Shown: one piece after another, positions 33,463 through 53,858 of the stretch | Position numbering within the stretch: position 1 is the first letter of the stretch | Layout: every line of letters starts with the position of its first letter | Origin: Cytophagales bacterium | GTDB lineage: Bacteria > Bacteroidota > Bacteroidia > Cytophagales > Spirosomataceae | DNA: 64,000 bases | Direction of reading: 5' to 3' | Assembly (NCBI GenBank): GCA_013298025.1 | Contig: JAAFJE010000001.1 | Span: 186,001 to 250,000 of the forward strand | Notes under the pieces: model-generated | What the model was told of the DNA's origin: nothing | The model's input: the letters and a program-made list of their open reading frames with translations, nothing else | Database searches by the model: none | Position numbers and translations under genes: made by a program

Positions 33463-36400
33463 TTATTTAAGCGTTACATTTACCCCTAACACAAAATTGC
33501 GAACCAAAGGATAATTGTTTGTCCAGTCGCCAGAACCTCTAAACGAGAAGTCGTTTTCGGGGTCCCAACCTAGCCAATTGGTAAAGGTGTATAAATTACG
33601 ACCACTCATATAAACGGTCAGCGAACCCAAGCCCAATTTGCTTGCCAAAGTTGCAGGGGCATTATAGCTTAGGGTTATGTCTTTGATGCGTGTGTAGCTG
33701 TTGTCGGACGGATACCCATAGCCTCTGGTATTGAAATAACGCAACGACGGACGAGTATTGCTTTTGTTTTCTTCTGTCCAATAACCAATGGCATCAGGCG
33801 TATTCATACGACCCGCTTCGTCGGCAAAAGTTAGGTTTACGTTATTTTTCAAGCCTCCTTGTACGGTTTGGATGAATACATTCAAATGGAAGTTTTTATA
33901 GTGAAAGGTATTCGTAAAACCACCCGTCCATTTGGGTAATGTTGTACCTAAAATGGTTCTGTCGTCGGCTGTAATTTTTTTGTCGCCATTTATATCAGCA
34001 AATTTCAAATCGCCAGGTTTGGCACCAGGGTCTTGTTGCGAAGCGTCTTCGCCTACTTGCCAAACGCCTTCTAATTTGTAGTCATAAATAATGCCTAACG
34101 ATTGTCCTAAAAACCAACGGTTGCCTAAGTCATCTTTACCATCGCCATAAAGCTCTACTATTTTGTTGCGGTACGAAGCAAAGTTGATATTACTTTCCCA
34201 TTTAAAATCGCCTGCTTTGACGTTGACGGTATTCAGGGTAATTTCAATGCCTTGATTTTCTGACTTTCCTAGGTTGTCGAGAATCGACGAATAGCCTGTG
34301 GCGGCTGGTAGGTTACGACGCAAAATCAGGTCTTCTGTTTTGGTTTGGTAGGCATCAATTGTACCTGTAATACGATTATTGAAGAGAGAGAAATCTAAAC
34401 CGAAGTTTAATGAAGTGGTATTTTCCCATTTCAGGTTGCTATTACCCAAGTTATTGGCCAATACCCCAATGGTGCTTACCCCCGAAAACGGAAAACGCAC
34501 CGAGCTTGCCGTGGTAAGCGTACCATATACGCCAATGGCTTCATTACCTGTTTTACCATAAGAACTACGCAATTTGAGGTTGTTGATGAAAGGAATATCT
34601 TGCATAAAACGCTCTTTACTGATGTTCCAGCCTAAACCAACCGATGGAAATAAACCGTATTTAGAAGTATTCCCTCCAAATACCGAAGAACCATCTCGGC
34701 GAGCCGTTACGGTTAACAAATAGCGACTATCATACGAGTAATTGATACGTCCCATTTGCGACAAATTGCTGCGTTTGTCACGGTATGAGCCACTGGTTTG
34801 TGTTGCTCCTGCCCCAAGGTTGTAGTACGAAAGTTCGTCGTTGATAAAGCCCGTTGCTCCTGCCGAAGTACTCATATAATCTTTCGACTGAGCACTGTAT
34901 AAGCCTGTAAAGTCGAAGTGGTGTTTGCCCCAATCTTTGTTATAAGTAAAGATGTTTTCTAGCAAAAATGAGTTCGATTCGGCATTGAAAATACTTGCCG
35001 AGCCAATCGTGCTGTTGGCATCTCTACCCGTATAACTTCCCGAACGAGAAGGCACCGTGATATAAGACGCATTGAGGCGGTATTTGAGTCCCGGTACAAA
35101 CGAGGGTTTGAGTTCGGCGTAAAAATTACCATTAAAATTTTTACTGCGTTCTAGGCGGTCAACGTTCAAGCCGATAAGCGGATTGGTGTAAAGTAATTCG
35201 GGATACATCGGATAAATTTCGTAGCCTCCACTTCCATTATACACCGTTCCATACGGACTCATAGCAGCAGCCAAATAGAAGTTGGTACGACCGCCATCGT
35301 AATTATTAGCCGTAAAAAACAAAGATGTACCAATGCTGAGATAATCGGTGATATTTACATCTAAATTAGAACGAAACGAAGCACGGTTGTACTGATAGCC
35401 TTTTACCACACCATCTTGTTTCAAAAATTCGCCCGAAATATAGTATTTCACATCGGCAGTACCCCCCGAAATGCTCAAATTATGGTCTTGCAATACGCCC
35501 GTTTGGGTTGTCAGGTCTATCCAATCGGTTACTTTTTTGGCATTATAATTACTCACTTCGTAGGCATTGGGCAATACGGCCGTTTGGGTAAGACCGTTTT
35601 GCTTCATGTAATCGGCATATTTTTGTACGTATTTTTCTGGACTACTGGGCGTTAAAATATGGGCAATATTTTCGATACCCACATAGGTATTGTAGCGAAT
35701 GGTTGGTTTGCCCGAAGCCCCTCTTTTGGTCGTAATCAAAATAACCCCATTCGAGCCTCTTACGCCATAAATGGCTACCGCAGAGGCATCTTTCAAAATT
35801 TCGATAGAGGCTATATCGTTGGGATTGATGTCGTTGGTAACGCCATCGGTATTACTCAATGGTACGCCATCAACTACAATAAAAGGCCCTGTTCCCGCCG
35901 TAATAGAGTTTAAGCCTCGCACTTGCACACTCGCCGAAGCACCCGGCACCGAAGACGATTGCGAAATATTTACCCCTGCTACCGAACCCTCAATGGCGTG
36001 TAGCACGTTGGTAACGGGCACTTGGCTCAAACGAGCCTTGGGTACAGATGTCACCGAGCCCGTGAGGTCGGTGCGTTTTTGTGTACCATAACCCACCACC
36101 ACTACTTCGTTGAGGGCTTGGCTACTGCTTTTTAGGGTAACGTTTATTATTGTACGTCTGCCAACCGTAACTTCCTGCCTTTCATAGCCTACCGACGAAA
36201 ACACAAGCGTTACGTTATCGTCGCTGACGGTCAAGCTATAGTTTCCGTTTGCGTCGGAACTTGTGCCTTTTTGTGTGCCTTTGATAAGCACCGTAACGCC
36301 TACGATAGGTTCGCCTTTTTCGGCATCTACAACTTTTCCCGTCACGGTATTGACCAAGTTGAGGGGAGTGATGGCACGAGGCAACAGTTGCGTAGCCAAT

Positions 36401-36777
36401 ACCATCGTTTCCGACTTTCGTTGGGTAAGGACGACTTGGTTATTTTTCATCACCAAGAATTGAATATTTCTTGGAATTAATAGACTGTTTAAAATGTTTT
36501 CGACGGTTTCGTGTTTAAACGACACCGACATTTTTTCGTCGGTTGGTAAAATGTTTTTTTGGTAAGAAAAAACTAAATCAACCTGCTTTTCAATGTCGCG
36601 CAGTACCTCACGCAAGGTTGTGTTGCGTGCCGTAATGGTCACTCGTTCTTTGAGTTGTTCCTGTGCGAATGAAGGCCGTGCAAAGCTTACACCAACCACC
36701 ATAAAAGCCATGACAAGTTGAATGGCAGTGATCTTCATAATTTTGAAAATCTCTTTTTTAGTAAGAAAATTTGACAT
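33463..36777 (-). CDS. SusC-like TonB-dependent receptor with STN signalling domain (PUL 1)
   Basis: A 1104-residue outer-membrane receptor. After the signal segment (KITAIQLVMAFMVVGVSFA) comes an STN domain (about 45-105, TLREVLRDIEKQVDLVFSYQ). A carboxypeptidase-regulatory-like domain (GKVVDAEKGEPIVGVTVLIK), the plug (NEVVVVGYGTQKRTDLTG) and the 22-strand barrel follow. STN domains pass signals to FecR-type anti-sigma factors, and a fecR homologue lies just upstream. ATG 36777 was chosen over a longer frame; ATG 36738 is also possible. Confidence 0.92.
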   Translation of the reverse strand: MSNFLTKKEIFKIMKITAIQLVMAFMVVGVSFARPSFAQEQLKERVTITARNTTLREVLRDIEKQVDLVFSYQKNILPTDEKMSVSFKHETVENILNSLLIPRNIQFLVMKNNQVVLTQRKSETMVLATQLLPRAITPLNLVNTVTGKVVDAEKGEPIVGVTVLIKGTQKGTSSDANGNYSLTVSDDNVTLVFSSVGYERQEVTVGRRTIINVTLKSSSQALNEVVVVGYGTQKRTDLTGSVTSVPKARLSQVPVTNVLHAIEGSVAGVNISQSSSVPGASASVQVRGLNSITAGTGPFIVVDGVPLSNTDGVTNDINPNDIASIEILKDASAVAIYGVRGSNGVILITTKRGASGKPTIRYNTYVGIENIAHILTPSSPEKYVQKYADYMKQNGLTQTAVLPNAYEVSNYNAKKVTDWIDLTTQTGVLQDHNLSISGGTADVKYYISGEFLKQDGVVKGYQYNRASFRSNLDVNITDYLSIGTSLFFTANNYDGGRTNFYLAAAMSPYGTVYNGSGGYEIYPMYPELLYTNPLIGLNVDRLERSKNFNGNFYAELKPSFVPGLKYRLNASYITVPSRSGSYTGRDANSTIGSASIFNAESNSFLLENIFTYNKDWGKHHFDFTGLYSAQSKDYMSTSAGATGFINDELSYYNLGAGATQTSGSYRDKRSNLSQMGRINYSYDSRYLLTVTARRDGSSVFGGNTSKYGLFPSVGLGWNISKERFMQDIPFINNLKLRSSYGKTGNEAIGVYGTLTTASSVRFPFSGVSTIGVLANNLGNSNLKWENTTSLNFGLDFSLFNNRITGTIDAYQTKTEDLILRRNLPAATGYSSILDNLGKSENQGIEITLNTVNVKAGDFKWESNINFASYRNKIVELYGDGKDDLGNRWFLGQSLGIIYDYKLEGVWQVGEDASQQDPGAKPGDLKFADINGDKKITADDRTILGTTLPKWTGGFTNTFHYKNFHLNVFIQTVQGGLKNNVNLTFADEAGRMNTPDAIGYWTEENKSNTRPSLRYFNTRGYGYPSDNSYTRIKDITLSYNAPATLASKLGLGSLTVYMSGRNLYTFTNWLGWDPENDFSFRGSGDWTNNYPLVRNFVLGVNVTLK

Positions 36778-37120
36778 ACATTTGACTGTTTTTGTTGGAA
36801 TTAGGACAAAACGAAGCTGTCTCTTTGCTTTGGCGAGCAAGAGTAGCAAAACATGAAGGAGAGATGTTGGCGCATCTTTCCTTTTTTATTGAATTAGGAA
36901 AAAAAGTACATTATAGATTCATGGTAATTTTGCTTTATATGTTGATTTTTTAATTTTATTCTATTTTTGTTAAGTATTAATGCAAAATTGTGAATTGTGA
37001 ATTAGTGTTTTCATTTTCAGCAATTTACGACTTATTTTAATCAAAAATATAAGCCCCTAAAACAAAACACTCATCACAATGCTGCATTAGTACTTATGTG
37101 TATGATAAGAGTATCTTAGC
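36778..37120. other. Gap between fecR and susC with palindromic repeat R4
   Basis: The left arm at 36980-37020 (AATGCAAAATTGTGAATTGT; ATTAGTGTTTTCATTTTCAG) and a degenerate right arm at about 37058-37090 (AACAAAACACTCATCACAAT) form locus R4 of the 3'-end family, about 30 bases after the fecR stop. The rest is AT-rich without a gene. Confidence 0.6.
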
Positions 37121-38194
37121 CTACTTACAACCTTCCGATTCTACGATAATTTGGGCATCAATTTCTTTATACTTTGCTCCAATGGTTTGACAAATCACAT
37201 CGAGTTTGTCGTACAAAGATTCTTGAGCAAAAGTGGTGGTGATGATACAACTCGACAGGCTTTCTTCATTATAAATAATTTTCACGCCATACAATTGTTC
37301 CATCAAAGCAAATACTTGCGACACGGGCATATCTTCGATGCGACGTTTGGCAAGCGTTACAGGTAAATGCAAGGGTAAAGGTGTTTCTACCAACCGTTTA
37401 TTAAGGGTGGCTTGTTCTCTACTAAAAATGGCCTGTTGGTTGGGCAATACAATCAATCCTTTGGCTTCGGCATCATTGAGATTGGCTTGGTTTTGCTTAA
37501 ATACCGCTACTTTTCCCGTTTTTACTTTTACATATACTTGCTTGTCGTAAGCAAAAGCCTGCACGCTAAAACTCGTACCTAATACCTTCGTAACCACTTC
37601 GTTGGCATACACATAAAAGGGACGTTTAGGATTTTTTTGTATGTCAAAAAAGCCTGCTCCGCTTAAAAACACTTCTCGTTTACTTGGTTCGAAATGAGCA
37701 GGATAGCTAATTTTACTATGGGCATCGAGTGTCACAAAACTGCCATCTTCGAGGGCTATTTTCATGGTATGGTCACTCGAATTGACTTGCTCAATGAGGT
37801 TATGCGTATCGGCTGTGGCTACCAAATCTTCGTAGGTAATTTGCGAATGGCGTTGGGTATAATAATAAAAACTCAACCCCAACAACAGAGCTATACTTGC
37901 AGCCAAAGCTCCCCATTTTTTCCAACTAAACCGACTTATCACGGGTGTTTGTGTGGGCTGATGCAAGGTATCTTGTATTTGCTCCCAAATTTTTTGTTGA
38001 TTAAGCACTGGCTGCTGGGCTTCATGCCTACGCAAATGCCGTATCATATCACGAGCTTGTTGTATATCAGCTTGTTTTGTAGGATTTTCCAACATGAAAG
38101 CTTGCCAAAAAGCATCTTGCTCTCCGTAGTAAACCCAACGGAAAAATGCCTCATCGTTCAAGAAATCATGGTATGCAAAATGCTGATATTTCAT
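37121..38194 (-). CDS. FecR-family anti-sigma factor
   Basis: The 357-residue protein has a cytoplasmic N-terminal part (about 1-100), one membrane helix (KWGALAASIALLLGLSFYYY, about 112-131) and a periplasmic FecR domain (ALEDGSFVTLDAHSKISYPA; REVFLSGAGFFDIQKNPKRP). The C-terminal DUF4974-like part (RIEDMPVSQVFALMEQLYGV) resembles STN. It should hold an ECF sigma factor until the STN receptor signals substrate. Unusually, no sigma gene lies beside it; the upstream gene is DUF2891. I start at MKYQHFAYHDF; an upstream ATG (38245) is in frame. Confidence 0.88.
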   Translation of the reverse strand: MKYQHFAYHDFLNDEAFFRWVYYGEQDAFWQAFMLENPTKQADIQQARDMIRHLRRHEAQQPVLNQQKIWEQIQDTLHQPTQTPVISRFSWKKWGALAASIALLLGLSFYYYTQRHSQITYEDLVATADTHNLIEQVNSSDHTMKIALEDGSFVTLDAHSKISYPAHFEPSKREVFLSGAGFFDIQKNPKRPFYVYANEVVTKVLGTSFSVQAFAYDKQVYVKVKTGKVAVFKQNQANLNDAEAKGLIVLPNQQAIFSREQATLNKRLVETPLPLHLPVTLAKRRIEDMPVSQVFALMEQLYGVKIIYNEESLSSCIITTTFAQESLYDKLDVICQTIGAKYKEIDAQIIVESEGCK

Positions 38195-38400
38195 ATTGGT
38201 TTTCGAGCGTCTCTTTTGTGCAAAGCTACGCTTCCTGTTTTTCATAGTTTTGGTTTACTCGCCCTTTATGGGCTTCTATTAATACAGGTACAATTTTTGA
38301 AAAAAACTAATCATTTTTTTTATAAAAAATTTAACATTTTTTATAAAAAACTAAAAATCAGACATTTATACCTAATACATAAATCTTTCTAACTTAGCTT

Positions 38401-43095: not shown

Positions 43096-44631
43096 TTATT
43101 TTCCTAAAACTACAACACTGGCAGGGGCAATATGCAGGGTTTTGCCTTGCATACTTGTTGTGCCAGAAGCAAATTTCACCTTTGTATAGGCAGCTTCTTT
43201 GGCAGGAAACGTGATAGTTTTAGCGTTGGAGGTAAGGTTGTGAATCACCAATAAATTGCCCTTGCGGTGTGTACGAACAAACGCCAAAATACCTTCTTCT
43301 GTAATGCTACTTTGAGCCAAATTAGGCTTGATTACTTGTTTTAAAGCAGGTTGGGCTTTACGGAAAGCAATGAGTTTTTTGTAGGTTTGAAACACCGAAT
43401 GGGGGTCTTTTTGCTGTACAGCCAATGGCATAACGCTTTGCTCGGTAGTCAACTGTGGAGTCATCCATTTGGTGCGACTGGCATCCTTACTGGCTACGTC
43501 CCACAAAAAAGGCTCACGGATGTTTTCGTCGGGCTTATCGCCGAGCATTCCGATTTCTTCACCATAATAGATATAAGGTTGCCCGGGCAACGTAAGTAAG
43601 ATTTGGGCGGCTATTTTCATTTTATCGGTATTCCCTTTCACCACCGTACCAATGCGTGCCTGGTCGTGGTTGTCGATGATGGTTGCATCAATAAAATTTG
43701 GATTTTGACTGCCAAAAGCTTTATAATCATTCAAAAGTTTGGTTACAAAACCATCGCTTTTACCTTCATTGACCATTTTTTGAATGGCAAAACAAGCATC
43801 TAAATGAAAGTTTGCAGGCAACCCTTTGAAGAAAGGAGCTACTTTGTCGGCACTGGTCCATACTTCACCTACAATATATACATCGGGTTTTACGGCTTGC
43901 ATTTTTTGTTTAAATTCAACCCAAAACTGATGACATTTTTCGGCTTCCCAATCAGGATAAATATGTTTGGCGGCATCAAGCCTAAACCCATCAACGCCTA
44001 CTTCTTTGAGCCAATATTGGGCAATGGCATAGATTTCTTGTCTTACTTTAGGATTATCATAATTCAAATCGGGCATTCCTCCCCAGAAAAGGGCGTAGTA
44101 TTTTTCGGTATCATTGGCACTAGCCAAATGCCAAGGCGTAATTTCCCAAGAGTCGCCTGTACGCTCACGGGTAGCAACGCCCATCGAGTCGATTTTTTGC
44201 GGACTCAACCACACGTAATAGTCACGATAAGGGTTATTTTTACCCTTTTTGGCTTCTACAAACCAAGGGTGCTTGTCGCTTGTATGGTTTATCACCAAGT
44301 CTTTGATAATCTTCATGCCTCGTTTATGTGCTTCGGCAATGAGCCTTTTGTAATCGGCCAAGGTGCCACATTCGGGGTCAATAGCCTTGTAGTCAGTCAC
44401 ATCGTATTTGTGGTACGAAGGCGATTGACTAACGGGCGTAAGCCAAAGGGCATCTACTCCGAGCGATTGGAGGTAGTCTAATTTACTCGTCACGCCGTTG
44501 ATGTCGCCAATGCCATCGCCGTTGGAATCGGCAAAAGAGCGGACAAAAATTTCGTAACAAACCGACGGCGTTTGTTGGGCATAGCTTCGCCATGTAAGGC
44601 ATAGCAAGCACCAGAAAAGAAGTTTTTTCAT
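43096..44631 (-). CDS. GH13 alpha-amylase, exported
   Basis: A 511-residue enzyme with signal peptide MKKLLFWCLLCLTWRSYAQQ. The four GH13 regions are present: DLVINHTS (111-118), GFRLDAAKH with nucleophile Asp219, EVWT with acid/base Glu256, and IDNHDQ near 325. It hydrolyses alpha-1,4-glucosidic bonds and the closest known types are neopullulanase/SusG-like or oligo-glucosidase-like enzymes. No lipobox is seen, so a periplasmic place is likely. It is the last gene of the starch locus, separated from susE by hairpins. Confidence 0.92.
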   Translation of the reverse strand: MKKLLFWCLLCLTWRSYAQQTPSVCYEIFVRSFADSNGDGIGDINGVTSKLDYLQSLGVDALWLTPVSQSPSYHKYDVTDYKAIDPECGTLADYKRLIAEAHKRGMKIIKDLVINHTSDKHPWFVEAKKGKNNPYRDYYVWLSPQKIDSMGVATRERTGDSWEITPWHLASANDTEKYYALFWGGMPDLNYDNPKVRQEIYAIAQYWLKEVGVDGFRLDAAKHIYPDWEAEKCHQFWVEFKQKMQAVKPDVYIVGEVWTSADKVAPFFKGLPANFHLDACFAIQKMVNEGKSDGFVTKLLNDYKAFGSQNPNFIDATIIDNHDQARIGTVVKGNTDKMKIAAQILLTLPGQPYIYYGEEIGMLGDKPDENIREPFLWDVASKDASRTKWMTPQLTTEQSVMPLAVQQKDPHSVFQTYKKLIAFRKAQPALKQVIKPNLAQSSITEEGILAFVRTHRKGNLLVIHNLTSNAKTITFPAKEAAYTKVKFASGTTSMQGKTLHIAPASVVVLGK

Positions 44632-44833: not shown

Positions 44834-46150
44834 TTATTTTTTAGTTAATGTATAAGTAGGGCTATTGGCGTTGGAAAGGTCTAATACAACTTTGTATTTG
44901 CCTGCTTGTACACTAATATCTGCCCCACCGCTTTCGAGTGTACCATCAGCTCCATTGTCGCCATAATTCACAGCCCAAGCGTCGTTGAAACGAAACTTAA
45001 TTTTACCCGCAGTTAAAGTAATATCATCAATCACCCATACTTTTTCGGTAGCAAAATCGGGGCGGAATTTTACATCAGGGCCATTCCAGCCGTTTGGTGT
45101 GGCATCGCCCACGATACCCCAAGGTTGGGTACTTTCTACGGTATATTTCAATTTTTTGAAATCAAACATTACATTATAATTCCCTGCACTTACCGTAATA
45201 TCACCGCCTCCCGACGACAACACACCTGCCGAGCCACCATAATTTACGCCCCAATCTTCGTTCAAGCGGGCTTTAATAGCACCATCTTTGAGGTAAACCG
45301 TTGTTTTCCAAGTGTCGGTGGTAGGGTCATAAGTCAAGGGCATATCTGGCGCATTCCAACCGCTTACGGTAGCACTACCAACCAAGCCCCAGCCATATTT
45401 TTCGATGGTATAAGTAAGCGATGCCAAGTTGAACGTAATTTTGTACGTTCCTGCCGTAACGGCAATGTCTGAGCCTCCTGCTTCGAGTGTACCATTAGCC
45501 CCGTTGTCACCATAATTCACCTCCCATTTATTGTCTTTACGGAACTTGATTTGTCCTGTATTGAGCGTCACATAAGCCACAAAAACGTCGGTTTGGTCAG
45601 TTTTATAGAAAGGCATATCTGGGCCGTTCCAGCCATTTAGCGTAGCACTTCCTACTACACCCCAAGCGGTGCTGAGGTCGAGTTTGTCTAAATATGGTGT
45701 CCCTTTAAGCGAAATGGTCGGTGAAGTAAAGACCAATTTAGAGGTATTGTCACCTACATTGGCTTGCACACGCAAGTCCACATCGCCAGCCGTGCCTGCT
45801 ACCAAGCCTAATTTTAATAAAATAGCATTTAATTCAGCTACTTTAAACGTTTTACTCAAGGTGGTATTGGTACTTACGGCAATGGGCGAGATAAACGAAC
45901 CACCTTTTTTATCTATTAAAATGGTATAAACCGCTGCTGCATCGAAGCCATAATTAGGCTTTCCCCAAGAAACTGTCACGGCATCGGCAGTGGCATTATC
46001 TTTGAGCAGCACCACCGAGGTGGCTGATAGTTTGGCAGCAGGCACCGAGCCATCTGCATTTAAGATAGCTCTTTCTTCTTCTTTGGCACAAGAGGCCAAG
46101 GCAAAAACAGCAGCTATGAGAAGTAAATATGAATAAAATACCTTTTTCAT
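44834..46150 (-). CDS. SusE/SusF-like starch-binding lipoprotein with three repeat modules
   Basis: A 438-residue lipoprotein (lipobox ALASCAKEE). The SusE-type N-terminal Ig-like domain covers about 30-150. Three modules of about 90 residues follow, each starting with WGxVG: AWGVVGSATLNGWNGPDMPF, WGLVGSATVSGWNAPDMPL and WGIVGDATPNGWNGPDVKF. Each also has IKFRxxxxWxVNYG-like and GGxDIxVxAGxYK motifs. In SusE/SusF such modules are carbohydrate-binding and hold starch at the cell surface without catalysis. It follows susD in the locus. Confidence 0.9.
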   Translation of the reverse strand: MKKVFYSYLLLIAAVFALASCAKEEERAILNADGSVPAAKLSATSVVLLKDNATADAVTVSWGKPNYGFDAAAVYTILIDKKGGSFISPIAVSTNTTLSKTFKVAELNAILLKLGLVAGTAGDVDLRVQANVGDNTSKLVFTSPTISLKGTPYLDKLDLSTAWGVVGSATLNGWNGPDMPFYKTDQTDVFVAYVTLNTGQIKFRKDNKWEVNYGDNGANGTLEAGGSDIAVTAGTYKITFNLASLTYTIEKYGWGLVGSATVSGWNAPDMPLTYDPTTDTWKTTVYLKDGAIKARLNEDWGVNYGGSAGVLSSGGGDITVSAGNYNVMFDFKKLKYTVESTQPWGIVGDATPNGWNGPDVKFRPDFATEKVWVIDDITLTAGKIKFRFNDAWAVNYGDNGADGTLESGGADISVQAGKYKVVLDLSNANSPTYTLTKK

Positions 46151-46240: not shown

Positions 46241-47830
46241 CTAGTAATTTGGATTTTGTTTCAAATTAGGATTCGCCGTTAGGTCGGTTGCTGGAATAGG
46301 ATAAATTTTAAGGTAGTCGCTTACGGCTTTTCCTTCTTTTGTACCCCCTTTCCAAGGCCACACATAGCTGGATGAAGTGTATTTATTGTATCGTACAAGG
46401 TCGGTACGGCGTGTACCTTCCCAGAATAATTCTCTGGCTCTTTCGTCTAAAATAAAATCGCTGGTAAGTTGAGCGGCTGTAATATTGCCGTTGGCATTGC
46501 CATACGCACGGGCACGAAGGGCATTGACATACTGCAAGGCGAGGGCTCTATCGCCTGCCCCACGGGTAGCGGCTTCGGCATAAATCAAATAGGCATCGGC
46601 CAAACGGAACATCGGATAGTCGGTGTCGGGGTGCGTCAAATCGCTTCCTCTTGTGCCTGTCGATGATACGTTTTTGTATTTTGTAATGGCGTATCCATTA
46701 GAAAACTGCGTCAAATCTTCGATTTCCAATTTTTGTCCGTCTGTATAAAACATGGCACGGGTATCTGTTTTGCCCGATGGGTCGGCAAAAAGACTCACCA
46801 ACGCTTTGGTGGTGCGTAAACCGCCCCAACCGCCATCAATACCAAAAGCTGCCGCCGACATCGAACCTCCCACAGGAGCATGAACCAAGTAAGTCATACC
46901 GCCCCATGTTTTTGTACGTGTACCATCGAAAGCCACAGGGAAAATGATTTCTTTAGAATTGTTGTTATCTGTTTTAAACAAATTATCGTACTTCGTTTCT
47001 AAAGTATAACCTGCGTCTATTACTTTTTTGGCATACGTAGCCGCATCGGCATACTTGGCTGTGAGCCCTTGAGCTTCGGCATTGAGGTACAATTTTGCCA
47101 ACAACATCCACACGGCTGCTTTGTCGGCACGGGCGTACTCGTTTTTACGGGCATCCGCCATTTCTGGTTCGATGGCTTTTAGCTCCGTTTCAATGTAGTT
47201 GAAAAGCTCACTTGCATTGGTTTGACGTGGCAACGTAGAACCAATGGCATCGGCTTCTGTAACAAAAGGAACGTTTCCGCCAAATAAATCCAAGGCGTGC
47301 CAATAGCTCAATGCACGCAAAAAGCGGGCTTCGGCACGTAGTTGCTTGGTTTCGGTCAACGAAGTACCTGTAATGCCTCTGCTGCTGAGTTTGGCATCGC
47401 TGGCTTCCCGAATAAATTCGTTGCAAGCTGCCACTTGGTAAAAAATACGGTTGTACAATCCACGCACAAATGGGTTGTTTGACGACCATTGCATGGTGTT
47501 CATTTCGGGTAAACCCGCATCCCCCCAAGCAATCACGGCTTCGTCGGTGGGCAATTCTTGTAACTGCCAATATTGACGCAAATAGCTCGAAAAACCTTCG
47601 TCGATGCCTCCCAAATCGGGCTTGCCAGCAGGGCCTTCTTGGCCTGTAAGTGCCAAGCCTGCATAAAGCTTGGCGGCGGCTTGTTTGTATGCCGTAGGTG
47701 AGTTGAATACCGTTACAGAAGTTACTTCTATGAATGGCGTTCTGTCGAGGTCGCTTACGCAAGAGGTCGTCCACAAACTGGCTACGATGCCTCCTAGAAT
47801 GGCTATATTTTTAAAATATCTTGTTTTCAT
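46241..47830 (-). CDS. SusD-like starch-binding lipoprotein (PUL 2)
   Basis: A 529-residue lipoprotein with signal ILGGIVASLWTTSCVSDLDR. It shows the SusD family core AEARFLRALSYWHALDLFGG (about 170) and the C-terminal FRLADAYLIYAEAATRGAGD and FILDERARELFWEGTRRTDL. It lies 37 bases downstream of its susC partner and is followed by a SusE-like gene and an amylase, so it most likely binds malto-oligosaccharides. I take ATG 47830 since the longer frame would overlap susC and lacks a signal at its start. Confidence 0.94.
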   Translation of the reverse strand: MKTRYFKNIAILGGIVASLWTTSCVSDLDRTPFIEVTSVTVFNSPTAYKQAAAKLYAGLALTGQEGPAGKPDLGGIDEGFSSYLRQYWQLQELPTDEAVIAWGDAGLPEMNTMQWSSNNPFVRGLYNRIFYQVAACNEFIREASDAKLSSRGITGTSLTETKQLRAEARFLRALSYWHALDLFGGNVPFVTEADAIGSTLPRQTNASELFNYIETELKAIEPEMADARKNEYARADKAAVWMLLAKLYLNAEAQGLTAKYADAATYAKKVIDAGYTLETKYDNLFKTDNNNSKEIIFPVAFDGTRTKTWGGMTYLVHAPVGGSMSAAAFGIDGGWGGLRTTKALVSLFADPSGKTDTRAMFYTDGQKLEIEDLTQFSNGYAITKYKNVSSTGTRGSDLTHPDTDYPMFRLADAYLIYAEAATRGAGDRALALQYVNALRARAYGNANGNITAAQLTSDFILDERARELFWEGTRRTDLVRYNKYTSSSYVWPWKGGTKEGKAVSDYLKIYPIPATDLTANPNLKQNPNY

Positions 47831-47867: not shown

Positions 47868-50858
47868 TTAGAAACCAATGTTTAAACCCAACGAATAAGT
47901 ACGTGGTACGGGATAAATATTGTTGTCGATACCGCCCGATACTTCGGGGTTGAGTCCCGAGTATTTTGTCCAAGTGAATACGTTTTGAGCCGTGGCATTC
48001 AAACGCATATTGATTTTATTCCCCAATACTTTTTTGAATGTATAACCCAAGGTAACGTTTTCGACACGCATAAACGAGGCATTTTCTAAATAGTAATCAG
48101 AAAAGAATTGGTTTTTGGCAAATTGTGTTTCATAAACATTGGGCGAAATGTTTGAAATATAGCCATTAGAACCAGCAAAATTGATGTATGCTCCATTCGA
48201 CGACTTGAAGTTGTTATAAACATAGTTGCCTACGTTGGCTCTCACGACAAAACCAAAACTCCAGTTGTCATACGTCATTTGTGAGTTGAAACCCAAAAAT
48301 ACCCTCGGTGCTGGCGATTTATAACGGTATTGGTCGTCAACGGTCGTGATGCCATCAGCTTTGTTGTCGGCATACACGCCTTCAATAGGCTTGCCGTTGG
48401 CATCATATACTTGTTTGAGTACATAAAAAGCATACGCTGGGTATCCTACCGAATGAATCTGGATGGTACTACCTACGCCACCTGCAATGCCACCAACCAA
48501 TACACCTTGGTACGATGGGTCGTTGTTGTTGGTAAGTTTCGTAATTTTATTTTCGTTGTAAGTGGCATTAAATGCTACGTTCCAATCAAATTTATCGGTA
48601 TGAATAGGATTATAATTCAAAGCCAATTCAACGCCTTGGTTTTCCATCGAACCTACGTTGGTCAACAATTGGTTGGTAAGGTTTGTACCTACCGCTACCG
48701 GAATGACGTTGAGGAGGTTGGTGGTGTTTTTGTAATAGTAATCTAAGCTACCCGACAAACGGATTTTTTTGAAGGCAAAATCAATCCCTGCGTTGGTGGT
48801 GGCGGTTTGTTCCCATTTGATGTTGGCATCGTATCCTTCGGCACGAAGCGTAGTGTAAAACGTATTGCCAAACTGGTATTGGGCGTTGTCTAAACTGGCG
48901 GTATAACGAGGCAAATACGCATAGTTCTGACCAATATCTTGCTGGCCTGTAATACCATAGCCTACCCGAAGTTTTAGTTCTGAAATGGCATCTACATTTT
49001 TCAAGAAACTCATTTCTTTTAGCTTCCAAGCCAATGCCGCCGATGGGAATGTTCCCCAACGATTGTCTTTGCTAAAACGTGACGAACCATCCTGACGTAC
49101 CGTAACGGTCAAAAGATATTTTTCATCAAAAGTATAGTTCATCCGACCAAAAAATGACACCAAGGTATTTTGAGTTTTGTAAGGACTATCCGTTAATACT
49201 TTGCTTCCTTCGGCGTTGGTTCTGAGGTTGGTACTTTCTGTTAAGAAATCTTGGTATTCATACCCTGCCATCACATCGAAACGGCTTTTGATTGCCTTTA
49301 AATCTTTGGCATAATTCAAGTAAAAGTCGAATAGCTTGTTGGTTTTGTTTTGCGAGTAAACCGTTTTTTCACCTCCTGTACTAAAATTAGAAGCTGCCGA
49401 AGCTGGAATCAACTTTGTGCCATCGCTTTTACTGATGTCGTAGCCTACGTTCAAATTGGCCCGTAGTTCGGGTAAAAAATGGAATTTATAATCAAGCTGA
49501 ATGTTTCCAATACTGCGTTGAACGGTACTTTTATCGCTGGTTTGGTACAACAAGCCAAGAGGGTTGCGTGGAGCAATGGTATTGGGCGAGCCATCTGAAT
49601 TGAGCCATTCCCAATAGCCTCCGTAGGTGTTTTTACCCGAATAAATGGGTTGCGTTGGGTCAAAAACGGCTGCTGCACCAATAGCACCTTCGTTGGCAAA
49701 GGTATTGTCTGCCGATGAACCTTTGAGGTTAATATCAACTTTCAAATGGTTGTTCAACAACATCGGACTGATGCCAATGGCTGCCGAGGCACGACCCATG
49801 TTAGAGGTTTTCAAAATACCGTCTTGGTTGGTATAACCCACCGAAACACGGAACGGCGTGCTTTTAATCGCCCCAGTTACGCTCAAGTTGTTGTCGGTAC
49901 TGAGGGCGTTGCGGTAAATTTGCTCTTGCCAATTGGTATTAGCTGTGCCTAATACTGCCTTTTGAGCGGCATTGCCTTTTTCGTTAATTAAGGCTCTAAA
50001 CTCGTCGGCTGTAAAGTTTTTGATAAAACCTGTGCTTTGAGCATAAGAAGCCTGCGAACTGAAATTTACTTTCAAGCCACTGCCTTTTGTACCTTTTTTG
50101 GTGGTAATCAAAATCACACCGTTAGATGCTCTTGAACCATAAATGGCTGTAGCTGAGGCATCTTTCAAAATATTCATCGACTCAATATCGTTCGGGTTGA
50201 TTAAACTCAAGGCACTGGGTGCTCCTGAAATACCAGCGTTATCCAAAGGTACTCCGTCTATCACAATCAGTGGGTCGTTGTTGGCGTTCAACGATGCTCC
50301 GCCACGAATCCTGATGGTACTTCCACGGCCCGGTGCACCGCCGTTCGACGTGATTTGTACCCCAGCTACTTTCCCTACTACCAATTGGTCGGGCGAGGCA
50401 ATGTTTCCTTTGTTGAAGTCTTCCGAATTGATGGCCGCCACCGAACCTGTTAGGTCTTTCTTTTTCTGCGAACCATAACCAATCACAACGACTTCGCCCA
50501 AGGTTTGTTCGTTGTCTTGCAAAGTAATGGTCAATGAGGTTTGACTCCCTACACTAATTTCTTGCGTTGTTTTGCCAATAAACGACACGACCAATACAGC
50601 ATTGCTCGGTACGTTGATTTGAAATTGACCTCCTGCGTTGGTCTGTGTTCCTTTGTTTGTGCCTTTTACTTGAATGGTCGCACCGGGCAAGGGCGAGCCG
50701 TCTTTGGCATCTTTGACCGTACCCGTGATATTGTTTTGGGCGAAAGTAGCCGCACTCAGGCAGCTCATGAAAAGGATGAGCCATAGTTTTCGAGCAAAGG
50801 AAAACGACTCTCCTAAACGAGAAGAATACAAAACTCTTCTGTAGTTGTGTTTAATCAT
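47868..50858 (-). CDS. SusC-like TonB-dependent receptor (PUL 2, starch)
   Basis: A 996-residue outer-membrane receptor without STN domain. After the signal (about 20-41, LSAATFAQ) come a carboxypeptidase-regulatory-like domain (GTVKDAKDGSPLPGATIQVK), the plug (VVVIGYGSQKKKDLTGSVAA) and the barrel, ending YSLGLNIGF. It imports oligosaccharides bound by the neighbouring SusD. The absence of STN fits control by the membrane AraC regulator encoded upstream rather than by a sigma/anti-sigma pair. Confidence 0.95.
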   Translation of the reverse strand: MIKHNYRRVLYSSRLGESFSFARKLWLILFMSCLSAATFAQNNITGTVKDAKDGSPLPGATIQVKGTNKGTQTNAGGQFQINVPSNAVLVVSFIGKTTQEISVGSQTSLTITLQDNEQTLGEVVVIGYGSQKKKDLTGSVAAINSEDFNKGNIASPDQLVVGKVAGVQITSNGGAPGRGSTIRIRGGASLNANNDPLIVIDGVPLDNAGISGAPSALSLINPNDIESMNILKDASATAIYGSRASNGVILITTKKGTKGSGLKVNFSSQASYAQSTGFIKNFTADEFRALINEKGNAAQKAVLGTANTNWQEQIYRNALSTDNNLSVTGAIKSTPFRVSVGYTNQDGILKTSNMGRASAAIGISPMLLNNHLKVDINLKGSSADNTFANEGAIGAAAVFDPTQPIYSGKNTYGGYWEWLNSDGSPNTIAPRNPLGLLYQTSDKSTVQRSIGNIQLDYKFHFLPELRANLNVGYDISKSDGTKLIPASAASNFSTGGEKTVYSQNKTNKLFDFYLNYAKDLKAIKSRFDVMAGYEYQDFLTESTNLRTNAEGSKVLTDSPYKTQNTLVSFFGRMNYTFDEKYLLTVTVRQDGSSRFSKDNRWGTFPSAALAWKLKEMSFLKNVDAISELKLRVGYGITGQQDIGQNYAYLPRYTASLDNAQYQFGNTFYTTLRAEGYDANIKWEQTATTNAGIDFAFKKIRLSGSLDYYYKNTTNLLNVIPVAVGTNLTNQLLTNVGSMENQGVELALNYNPIHTDKFDWNVAFNATYNENKITKLTNNNDPSYQGVLVGGIAGGVGSTIQIHSVGYPAYAFYVLKQVYDANGKPIEGVYADNKADGITTVDDQYRYKSPAPRVFLGFNSQMTYDNWSFGFVVRANVGNYVYNNFKSSNGAYINFAGSNGYISNISPNVYETQFAKNQFFSDYYLENASFMRVENVTLGYTFKKVLGNKINMRLNATAQNVFTWTKYSGLNPEVSGGIDNNIYPVPRTYSLGLNIGF

Positions 50859-50899
50859 AAATTTGAAATGGTTAATGGATGATAAAAAATAAGCTATGG

Positions 50900-50930
50900 T
50901 TGTACAAGTCGGCTAAACAGACCTGTACAA
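50900..50930 (-). promoter_or_regulatory. Leader hairpin 42 bases before susC
   Basis: TTGTACAAGTC pairs with GACCTGTACAA with one mismatch around a 9-base loop. It could control translation or termination in the susC leader; there is no U-tract. Confidence 0.4.
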
Positions 50931-51002
50931 GGATAAGACTTACAAGGTTGGTATTGCTTTTGAGCAAGACATACAAGCGTAGGTTTGGCTCAAACACAAA
51001 GG

Positions 51003-51110
51003 TTACAGGGGAATTTTCCCTGTGATATACATAAAACTAGATAAAAACGAAGGACTGGGCAACGGCTTGGCGGTTGCTGTACGAGAAGTGTGCGTGTATA
51101 AGTTTTTCAT
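51003..51110 (-). CDS. Possible 35-residue leader peptide upstream of susC
   Basis: On the minus strand an ATG frame starts MKNLYTHTSRTATAKPLPSP and ends TGKIPL at a TAA (51003-51005), inside the susC leader 145 bases before the susC start. It is rich in Thr, Ser and Pro with no membrane segment. Its start lies about 137 bases after the predicted promoter box. It may be a regulatory upstream reading frame or chance; no family is recognised. Confidence 0.3.
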   Translation of the reverse strand: MKNLYTHTSRTATAKPLPSPSFLSSFMYITGKIPL

Positions 51111-51221
51111 GGTTAATGATGTACTGGTCTTGTACGTTAGTTTTGGTATATTGCTGGATGGTTGTGTCTGCTTTCAGTATTTCACTTGGGTGTAGCTAGG
51201 CTGTTGGAATTATTATGCTAT

Positions 51222-51254
51222 GTAAATATTTTGTAAATATTTCTTGCAAAAATA
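51222..51254 (-). promoter_or_regulatory. Candidate promoter and operator of the starch locus
   Basis: TATTTTTG on the minus strand (51247-51254) matches TAnnTTTG. Two direct copies of the palindromic GTAAATATTT follow within 5-25 bases, at the expected transcription start. They could be the binding site of the AraC regulator encoded upstream. Confidence 0.35.
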
Positions 51255-51413
51255 CTATCTAAAAACAGCCTGAGTCGTTCCACTTTCTGAAATCTGCATT
51301 TTTTTATGAAAAACTTGAACAATACACACAACCACCTGAATAGCAATAGCTTACCTATACACCTAAACATTCCACTTTATAAAATGGCACATATTTTTTG
51401 GGTAAATAGTGCT

Positions 51414-53366
51414 TTACTCTTCGGCTCTCGAATCAAAGAAGTACTCTCTTGGGGTTTGTTGGGTCATTTTTTTGAAGGCTCGGTTGAATGCTGTTTTAGA
51501 ATTAAAGCCCACTTCAAACGCAATGGCAAGCATGGTGTATTGCCGATTGCGTGGGTCTTCAAAACGCTCTTTGAAGGCTTCTATCCGATAGGAATTGATA
51601 AAATCGAAAAAGTTTTTCTGATATACTTCGTTGATAACTTTTGAGAGTAAATGTGGTGAAATTTTCAGCATTCCAGCCAATTCGTTGAGGGTAAGTCCTG
51701 CGTTGGTGTAAGGCTTTTGCTCGTCCATGAACAGGTCTATTTTTTCCTTCCATGACAACAGCAATTGTTCTTGGGCTGCTTCTTTTTCGGTATCAATCAC
51801 CTCCAAAACGGGCAAAGGTTCGGGCGTATGGTTGGGCGGAAGGGCAACGTTTTCGGGCATAGCCACCTCATCCGTAGCTACTGGCTCATGGTTGGGCGAT
51901 ACGGCATTACTCGAAGGTGCTTCCTGCGAAATTTTGAATATTTCGGGTTGATGGATGGCAAAATAGCCCAAAAAGTAGGGTATCGTCGAAAACGCCAGCC
52001 ATATAATATCAACGCTTTTGTCGGCAATCGTCAAGGTGTCGTAATCAAACATTTTACCTACGAGCATCACGATACCTGTAAATAGCCATAGCACCAAGCA
52101 TATCGCCTGAATGACCAGTACAGTCATCAGGTATTCGGTGCGTTGCTCAATAGAGGCTTGCGTAAGGTATTGCTGCTGATAATTTTTAACCGACAACCAA
52201 CATTGGTACCAATAAAACACATTGGCCCACCAAGCCACTACGCCAATGCCCACAAATACATAATGAAAATCGGTTGGACGGTTCAAGATGGTCAGTTGCA
52301 ATTCTTTGGCATCCATCAAAAAGTAGGGAAGCATCACCAATAATTGCAAACCAGGCAACACAAAATGCCACCACAAGGGTACGTTTAAGGTTGGTTTTTT
52401 AAACAATAATTTTTGTAAATAGTAATAAAACAAAGGAGCATATAGTAAGAAAACCAAATCGGGGACCAACAATATTTTACTTAGCTGTTCTGTGATAATT
52501 CTGTAACCCGTAAGGACTTTTATCAACAAAATTACACTGGTAAATAGAATGGTAAAAGAAAGCCATCGGTTGGCTTTGCGGTTGTAATCTTGCATGGTTG
52601 GAATGGCAATCACCAGCAAAATACATTGAAACGACGAAAATAATAAGAGTAAATCGTACAAAGAAAAGAAATTGAACGTACCCGACAGGTCTTCCCAACT
52701 GGCAATATCAATGGGTATTTCTTCTAAATTAAAAGCACTTTCCCGAAAAATAACCCGATTTTGCCGGGCTTTTCCACTCGCCAAGCCTTCTACCGACGAC
52801 CAATCGCCACGGGTAAATTTAAACTCTAATTTCGATAAATCGGTCGTCACAGAAACCCTGTACGTTCCATCAAACTGCCGTTGCAGGCGGTAATGTTCGT
52901 TGTTGGTTTCCCAATTATTAAAATTTCCAGCAACATAAATGCGGGCATCTTTGGGCGTATTGGCAGGAATACTTTTGATATACAAGCGATACGTAGGCTT
53001 GGCTTCCCAGCCCTGTATGGTGTCGAGTACCGTCGTGAGCCGACGTTCTTTGCTTTGTTCAAAAATTCTATTTTGGCGTGAATCGCCCTTGCTTGTGCCT
53101 TCTACCATTGTCCAATAGCCTTGGGTATATTTATACTCAAAACGTTGCAAAGTATCGGGCAATTCGAGGTAATAACGCCCATTAGTAGCGGCTTTCATTT
53201 CAAAGAGTGGGTCGCCCGGCGACCAATTATTAAAACTACAAGCCATAAAAATTTTCAGCCCTTCTGGATTTGTTGAAGATGGTATTTTTACTTCAAAGCG
53301 TAGTTGTGCTTGTGTGTGGAGCATCCAGCAACAACACAAACCCCAAAGCACAATTTTTTTAATCAT
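51414..53366 (-). CDS. Membrane AraC regulator with two starch-binding-like periplasmic domains
   Basis: A 650-residue fusion. A signal peptide (MIKKIVLWGLCCCWMLHTQA) is followed by two E-set/CBM48-like modules at about 22-100 (MACSFNNWSPGD; FEYKYTQGYWTMVEG) and 115-195 (VAGNFNNWETNN; LEFKFTRGDWSSVEG). Seven hydrophobic helices (about 215-450) come next, then a linker and a C-terminal AraC domain (about 555-650; MLKISPHLLSKVINEVYQKN; MLAIAFEVGFNSKTAFNRAF). It predicts a sensor that binds alpha-glucan outside and DNA inside. It lies just upstream of susC on the same strand and is probably the locus activator. Confidence 0.87.
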   Translation of the reverse strand: MIKKIVLWGLCCCWMLHTQAQLRFEVKIPSSTNPEGLKIFMACSFNNWSPGDPLFEMKAATNGRYYLELPDTLQRFEYKYTQGYWTMVEGTSKGDSRQNRIFEQSKERRLTTVLDTIQGWEAKPTYRLYIKSIPANTPKDARIYVAGNFNNWETNNEHYRLQRQFDGTYRVSVTTDLSKLEFKFTRGDWSSVEGLASGKARQNRVIFRESAFNLEEIPIDIASWEDLSGTFNFFSLYDLLLLFSSFQCILLVIAIPTMQDYNRKANRWLSFTILFTSVILLIKVLTGYRIITEQLSKILLVPDLVFLLYAPLFYYYLQKLLFKKPTLNVPLWWHFVLPGLQLLVMLPYFLMDAKELQLTILNRPTDFHYVFVGIGVVAWWANVFYWYQCWLSVKNYQQQYLTQASIEQRTEYLMTVLVIQAICLVLWLFTGIVMLVGKMFDYDTLTIADKSVDIIWLAFSTIPYFLGYFAIHQPEIFKISQEAPSSNAVSPNHEPVATDEVAMPENVALPPNHTPEPLPVLEVIDTEKEAAQEQLLLSWKEKIDLFMDEQKPYTNAGLTLNELAGMLKISPHLLSKVINEVYQKNFFDFINSYRIEAFKERFEDPRNRQYTMLAIAFEVGFNSKTAFNRAFKKMTQQTPREYFFDSRAEE

Positions 53367-53483
53367 ATTGATGAATAATGAGATTGTTCTAAGAAAATAA
53401 GCCGCAATAGGCAAAGCAAATATACAGTATTCTTGTTGTACGCAGGGCTAAAAACATCACTTTCTACAAGTACAGGCATAAAA

Positions 53484-53514
53484 ATAGCCCGAAAATCTCA
53501 GGTTTTCGGGCTAT
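53484..53514 (-). terminator. Minus-strand terminator-like hairpin
   Basis: ATAGCCCGAAAA pairs with TTTTCGGGCTAT; on the minus strand TTTTTATG follows. No intact minus-strand gene precedes it. Confidence 0.6.
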
Positions 53515-53542
53515 GAAAAAGTTAGGTGATTCTCTTTGAAAT

Positions 53543-53858
53543 TAATAGCACAGAAACAATATAAAAGTAAGGATTATAATTCATGGCATGATATGCCATT
53601 GCGTTTGATTGAATGCCGTAAGGGCAACACAATGCTTTTATCAGACTTTCATCTGAAAGGTTAATACTTGGTAACAGGGTAAGGAAATGGCAGACGGCAA
53701 AACGCTGTTTGCGATGTCTGGACGCATTGAGTAAAACTCAATTAGATAAATTGCATAAAGTCGCTACGCTGACTCATAAACAATTCTTTTCGTGGCGGCA
53801 AAAAGAATGGAAAGATAAGTTTAAACGAACAAGTAAGGCTTATTTAATATATCAGTAA
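53543..53858 (+). pseudogene. Possible degraded gene in two frames
   Basis: One frame (about 53538-53666) encodes KLIAQKQYKSKDYNSWHDMP and then RLIECRKGNTMLLSDFHLKG before a stop. A second frame to 53858 encodes RKWQTAKRCLRCLDALSKTQ and later QFFSWRQKEWKDKFKRTSKA. Both are strongly basic and protein-like, but neither has a good start. They could be the remains of one frameshifted gene. Family unknown. Confidence 0.25.

Follow-up and report, generated by a model that had tools for sequence, protein, structure and literature searches.

The regulator gene lies on the minus strand of the window (the whole 64,000-nucleotide stretch of DNA that was analysed), where its reading frame runs from an ATG at 53366 to a stop at 51414; a TTG codon 16 codons upstream of the ATG is also in the open frame. 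Directly downstream, on the same strand, are the genes for SusC, SusD, SusE and a GH13 enzyme (Table 1). These same-strand neighbours were identified by Pfam and TIGR04056, and the placement of the gene beside a starch locus in the preliminary description is borne out. The SusD match to NF033071 lies below the cut-off of that model (454.6 of 725 bits). A scan of positions 50700-53700 against Rfam gave no match. Elsewhere in the window, at 33463-38245, there is a receptor of SusC type whose N-terminus is extended by a secretin-like stretch; an apparent FecR-type anti-sigma factor stands beside it (both by eye), and the pair may mark a different control system some 13 kb away.

Table 1. Features of the regulator gene, the candidate operator and the presumed target genes, with window positions and the basis of each assignment.
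Feature	Position	Strand	Basis
E-set(x2)-7TM-AraC transmembrane regulator, 650 aa	51414..53366	-	ORF, Pfam, profile, relatives
Signal-peptide-like N-terminus, residues 1-20, ending ...TQAQ	53307..53366	-	sequence; predicted only
E-set domain 1, residues 24-122, AMPK glycogen-binding/CBM48-like	53001..53297	-	profile; weak phmmer match
E-set domain 2, residues 128-226	52689..52985	-	profile, fold model, Foldseek, single-domain members
Membrane region, residues 236-472, ~7 helices	51951..52661	-	hydropathy; helices of low-confidence model
AraC-type helix-turn-helix domain, residues 563-642	51441..51680	-	Pfam HTH_18
Distal imperfect palindrome GTGCCATTTTATAAAGTGGAAT	51369..51390	-	gap alignment, pattern comparison
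Proximal candidate operator box AAAGTGGAACGAC	51274..51286	-	gap alignment, pattern comparison
TAnnTTTG promoter element TATTTTTG, before susC	51247..51254	-	pattern comparison
SusC/RagA TonB-dependent transporter, presumed target	47868..50858	-	TIGR04056 E=3e-236
SusD starch-binding lipoprotein, presumed target	46241..47830	-	NF033071 E=4e-136 + SusD_RagB
SusE, presumed target	44834..46150	-	PF14292 E=8e-28
GH13 alpha-amylase with SusG C-terminal domain, presumed target	43096..44631	-	PF00128 E=7e-102, PF23915 E=5e-12

The predicted signal-peptide-like segment of the protein is followed by Q21, a residue that is at least 90% conserved in an alignment of 23 full-length relatives. Hydropathy distinguishes eight segments, the signal peptide included, and together with the AlphaFold helices it places putative membrane helices at residues 236-258, 265-285, 302-321, 333-349, 366-~390, ~408-435 and 448-472, consistent with the seven that had been proposed for this protein. 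The full-length AlphaFold model, built from five sequences, has a mean pLDDT of 45.7 and thus low confidence, and it served for helix positions only. The proposed AraC domain is secure: HTH_18 (E=9.8e-15, 55.1 bits against a cut-off of 33.6) and HTH_AraC (E=2.4e-8, 34.4 bits against 26.6) both exceed their Pfam cut-offs, HTH_18 occurs in all 23 family members scanned, and the regulator is a member of the AraC/XylS family through its C-terminal domain. If the N-terminus is exported, an odd number of helices would place the AraC domain in the cytoplasm and the E-set repeats in the periplasm.

The two repeats, each of about 99 residues, were delimited by an iterated profile seeded with the regulator's own pair, which bears out the two E-set-like modules noted earlier. 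The same profile also picks up the domain in relatives, as well as in stretches of CBM48 type within neighbouring GH13 enzymes; in one such stretch (L069, 276-329) Pfam independently places CBM_48, just below its cut-off. In the regulator itself the Pfam matches are sub-threshold, both for AMPK1_CBM (E=0.01, 16.4 bits against a cut-off of 26.8) and for CBM53 (E=0.011). At E 0.001, AMPK1_CBM matches two of the 23 members and CBM_48 one, and a relative made of three tandem repeats (L094) exceeds the AMPK1_CBM cut-off with 41.8 bits. A weak phmmer alignment (E=0.1) of domain 1 with the glycogen-binding domain of AMPK beta-2 brings an FNNW motif and a second tryptophan into register. The predicted fold may point in the same direction. 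A model of domain 2 built from ten domain sequences (pLDDT 77.1, pTM 0.72) gave 1237 Foldseek matches at E 10, and among the 50 listed, 46 are, on a reading by eye, starch- or alpha-glucan-binding or -acting; those listed include starch-binding domains of beta-amylase, CGTase, STBD1, CBM41, CBM25, a Bacteroides ovatus Sus amylase and AMPK. The best match has an E of 1.3e-3 and a TM of about 0.5, so that none reaches E 0.001, and the AMPK domain 1z0n stands at rank 31. When solved structures were searched with profiles of the E-set alignments, the only matches were weak ones to a Bacteroides ovatus GH13, and E-set relatives were not confirmed in viral contigs.

The putative ligand residues of the repeats hardly vary. 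In an alignment of 40 of the 44 E-set copies from 23 proteins (four near-duplicates, from L065 and L067, were left out), W27, K58, G62, E68, N78, R79 and W99 are each found in all 40 copies and W64 in 38. We take W27, K58, W64 and N78 to be the equivalents of W100, K126, W133 and N150 of AMPK, an equation in which the alignment covers the two tryptophans only. Profile, fold and conserved residues, each of moderate weight, make it likely that the repeats are E-sets of the alpha-glucan-binding type. The CBM48-like or starch-binding-like label that the modules had been given is therefore right in kind but, as the Pfam matches are sub-threshold, it is not secured by Pfam.

The regulator was found (E 1e-60) in 73 of 222 genomes and 24 of 36 genera of the window's own family, with one copy per genome except for two in G028, and in five of the 295 genomes of a wider class sample in which the window's own genome is counted. 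In another family of the order, all four further proteins read have the layout of two E-sets, membrane region and AraC domain, as assigned by eye. Named relatives comprise a strain labelled Cellulophaga sp. BC115SP and three records from Flectobacillus, which belongs to the order Cytophagales. Members with a single E-set (L080, L083, L173, L175-L177) keep domain 2, the one proximal to the membrane. A layout that has been kept across so many genomes is not due to chance.

We found that the regulator keeps company with starch genes well beyond the window. The 75 regulators compared come from the 73 family genomes, with both copies of G028 counted and a partial copy in G587 left out, and from G047 and G202. 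A SusC with at least 45% identity to that of the window lies within 2 kb of 57 of the 75, downstream on the same strand in 52 cases and divergent in five. Either a SusC of this kind or a GH13 gene lies within 2 kb of 62 regulators and within 9 kb of 65; two of the ten that lack both within 9 kb are at contig ends. AraC genes without E-sets had a SusC or GH13 gene within 9 kb in none of 21 cases, these controls coming from 20 regions that were hand-picked, not random, 16 of them in regulator-bearing genomes. By hydropathy, 20 of the 21 control proteins have 3 to 7 hydrophobic segments; the remaining one, of 674 residues, has none and is not of the membrane AraC kind. A starch-type SusD (E 1e-80) is present in 73 of the 222 family genomes: 67 genomes have both it and the regulator, six the regulator alone, six the SusD alone and 143 neither, although the shared ancestry of the genomes means that these counts are not independent and that any formal P value would be inflated. 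The comparisons support a tie between the regulator and starch loci across its family.

Some copies have other neighbours. At L079, L081, L082 and L160 the regulator is directly downstream of a gyrA/parC-like gene (named by eye) and away from, or loosely near, a starch locus; at L075 it is beside likely galactose-metabolism genes, and LacI-type genes are near L161, L174 and L178 (all by eye). GH53 is a family of endo-beta-1,4-galactanases. A GH53 gene lies between the regulator or operator and SusC at L084 (11240-12361), L265, L287 and L288, and its presence in several starch operons of the regulator's group is unexpected for a starch locus.

The operons with an internal GH53 gene and the neighbours of the L075 copy would suit a regulator that controls the starch locus but senses another signal, one entering by way of the membrane helices, with the E-sets mediating protein interaction or assembly, or binding a different glycan. 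The same type of E-set is also fused to esterases and to a thioredoxin-like protein, which means that the E-set alone is not starch-specific. Against this stand the invariance of W27 and K58 and near-invariance of W64 in the 40 copies, the mostly starch-binding character of the Foldseek matches listed and the tight co-occurrence of the regulator with starch SusD. We consider a different signal unlikely, and alpha-glucan remains our preferred ligand.

Alignment of five close relatives revealed two conserved blocks in the gap between the regulator gene and susC. The distal one is a palindrome with the consensus GTnCCAYTTTnnAAARTGGnAC; the proximal one is a box with the consensus AAAGTGGnnCGAC, the first base of which is 31-32 bp before TAnnTTTG, presumably the -7 promoter element of Bacteroidota. 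From the promoter element to the susC start runs a leader of about 390 bases (50859-51246 in the window) that is poorly conserved except beside the start codon. In 45 non-redundant upstream regions, out of 59, AAAGTGG is the most over-represented 7-mer (28 regions against 2.1 expected), counted in 600-bp stretches that are partly regulator coding sequence. The patterns were chosen after the sequences had been seen, and the strict form was then tested genome-wide. Among 61 starch-adjacent gaps (62 loci minus one with a convergent gap), 46 contain at least one box, 31 have the proximal box at 29-33 bp ahead of TAnnTTTG, and in 30 a pair of boxes is separated by 75-106 bp, compared with 3.07, 0.005 and 0.005 in shuffles that resample bases by first-order chance and are not exact dinucleotide shuffles. 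Clades without the exact box have the variants AAACTGGnACGAC or nATGGGGCGA in the same arrangement, with both arms of the palindrome changed, and 52 of 66 gaps (the 75 minus seven that are convergent and two under 60 bp) contain the proximal box in a relaxed form. In the divergent group L179-L184 a single opposite box was seen and no clear palindrome.

AAAGTGG boxes on the same strand tend to lie 79-81 or 90-93 bp from each other, two spacings that differ by about one helical turn, and distal boxes on the opposite strand lie at 85-91 bp. A helical register between the boxes is suggestive only, because same-strand spacings of 96 and 104 bp (L085 and L073) and an opposite-strand spacing of 102 bp (the L142-L144 group) also occur. 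The spacings bear as well on whether the palindrome might be the transcription terminator of the regulator gene and not part of an operator, as its covarying arms, its frequent location no more than 60 bp from the stop codon of that gene and the T run that follows it in L084 would allow. In 46 loci the palindrome is 89-116 bp from the proximal box (sd 7.7; 60-130 bp upstream were searched) whereas its distance from the stop codon ranges from 1 to 323 bp (sd 81), and such tight spacing to the box with loose spacing to the stop codon argues against a terminator. The palindrome also precedes alpha-amylase genes elsewhere (L271, L272). A terminator seems to us quite improbable, and we treat the palindrome and the proximal box as one candidate operator.

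The strict composite site is present in 47 of the 222 genomes, against five for a reversed control pattern, and its distribution follows that of the regulator: it is found in 41 of the 73 genomes with the regulator and in six of the 149 without it, being absent from 32 of the 73. The eight sites read away from the promoter next to the regulator all precede SusC, GH53-SusC, GH13 or alpha-amylase genes, in every case in a regulator-bearing genome (the alpha-amylases of L271 and L272 were recognised by sequence inspection). In genomes without the regulator, leaving out that of G564, four sites precede unrelated genes and that of G585 precedes a SusC. Two AAAGTGGnnCGAC sites in the window's own genome, C4:148566 and C7:4164, were not counted as part of a regulon because no starch gene is at hand and their number equals that of the reversed-pattern control (two).

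Another owner for the operator must also be weighed; it might belong to a different regulator or to the promoter itself, the regulator gene being a mere neighbour of susC or having some other target. Of the starch loci remote from the regulator, six could be read, with the operator present in one (G032) and absent in five; L249 was too short for its promoter to be read and is not among the six, and its genome, G028, has the site before another SusC fragment (L286). At L245 and L246 no site was found, in an upstream stretch longer than that set for the other loci. The site in G585, where the regulator was not detected, and the LacI-type genes close to three copies would also fit a different owner. 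The distribution of the site across genomes argues the other way. So do the starch SusC loci of genomes without a detected regulator, where six of seven loci (in six genomes) lack the proximal site and the exception is that of G585, a fragmented genome, and the paralogous SusC loci, all six of which lack it. We therefore think another owner very unlikely. Comparison across genomes shows a candidate operator and its link to the regulator.

These observations suggest, with a probability of roughly three in four, that the protein is a one-component transmembrane activator of starch use that works as SusR does but is built from different parts. By analogy with the Sus paradigm, SusC and SusD in the outer membrane would bring maltooligosaccharides into the periplasm, where the two AMPK/CBM48-like E-sets at the inner membrane would bind them. 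The approximately seven membrane helices would relay the signal to the cytoplasmic AraC domain, which would act at the proximal AAAGTGGnnCGAC box beside the promoter with the help of the distal palindrome, possibly through looping between the two, and so switch on susC, susD, susE and the GH13 gene. Activation, as the direction of control, is assumed from the biology of AraC proteins.

A wider view, which we hold tentatively, is that the E-set of the AMPK/amylase type may be a general periplasmic sensor of alpha-glucan in the Cytophagales that is wired to at least two outputs: the 7TM-AraC fusion, perhaps acting at the palindrome and the proximal box with a DNA loop involved, and a tandem lipoprotein beside LytS/LytTR. 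In all three loci read (L094, 7645-10721; L096, 9335-12857; L097, 9592-12546) a three-gene cassette encodes, besides a LytS-type histidine kinase and a LytTR response regulator, a lipoprotein-like protein with a tandem array of three to five E-sets, the domains having been assigned by Pfam for L094 only and by eye for the other two. This cassette looks like a second alpha-glucan sensing system. The E-set of the regulator has further partners. It is fused to an alpha/beta esterase at L086, L087, L091 and, in the window's own genome, L103 (9419-10492), and the fusions of L086, L087 and L091 adjoin a SusC-led locus with SusD and/or SusE; at L098 (9584-11347) an E-set-like domain (CBM_20, E=0.0012, under the cut-off) is fused to an AhpC/TSA thioredoxin-like protein.

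What is known of starch sensing in the Bacteroidota comes mainly from SusR of gut Bacteroides, and we know of no established signals for membrane AraC proteins. If our reading is correct, a group of environmental relatives uses a separately built one-component starch system whose sensor is recognisable and whose operator is defined, and a membrane AraC protein would have gained an identifiable ligand. The proposal is directly testable, given that the two domains are amenable to purification, the site nearest the promoter spans 40 bp and the target operon is adjacent.

Several known systems share features with this regulator. Its repeats resemble the AMPK beta glycogen-binding domain, CBM48, CBM20 and CBM53 in their predicted E-set beta sandwich, FNNW motif and second tryptophan, and differ in falling below the Pfam cut-offs and in belonging to a membrane regulator. 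The Bacteroidota also have membrane AraC proteins of about 370-425 residues, which share the membrane region and the AraC domain, several of them aligning over residues ~230-643 at about 27-32% identity; they differ in lacking E-sets and, in all 21 control genes examined, a SusC or GH13 gene within 9 kb. Hybrid two-component systems likewise place a periplasmic sensor and an AraC-type output beside SusC/D loci, but they have kinase and receiver domains, and ECF systems have a sigma or anti-sigma domain. The contrast already drawn with both kinds of system holds, since no histidine kinase, receiver, sigma or anti-sigma domain is among the Pfam matches of the regulator. A regulator labelled SusR at a glycogen/starch locus of Pontibacter, given without domains in the portion of the account available (PMC11206854), could be a member of the same family.

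The closest comparison is with SusR itself. A search by NF033071 at E 1e-180 for a route to a Bacteroides sus locus yielded none in 198 genomes, nor in its own 14 control genomes, and SusR is compared here by its description. SusR (BT3705) of Bacteroides thetaiotaomicron is described as a maltose-binding membrane protein that senses on the periplasmic side, carries its DNA-binding domain in the cytoplasm and activates the starch operons; this domain is said not to resemble that of any other known factor significantly (PMC3878776). The SusR-like logic is thus a recognised one, while the E-set-7TM-AraC combination of parts is described nowhere in the literature searched, which took in few subscription papers. 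The preliminary description had set the protein apart from the classic SusR; as SusR is so described, a membrane protein joining a periplasmic sensor to a cytoplasmic DNA-binding domain in the topology predicted here, that difference narrows to the parts. By that description the two proteins have their logic in common, and what sets the regulator apart from SusR is its clear AraC domain and its CBM48-like sensors.
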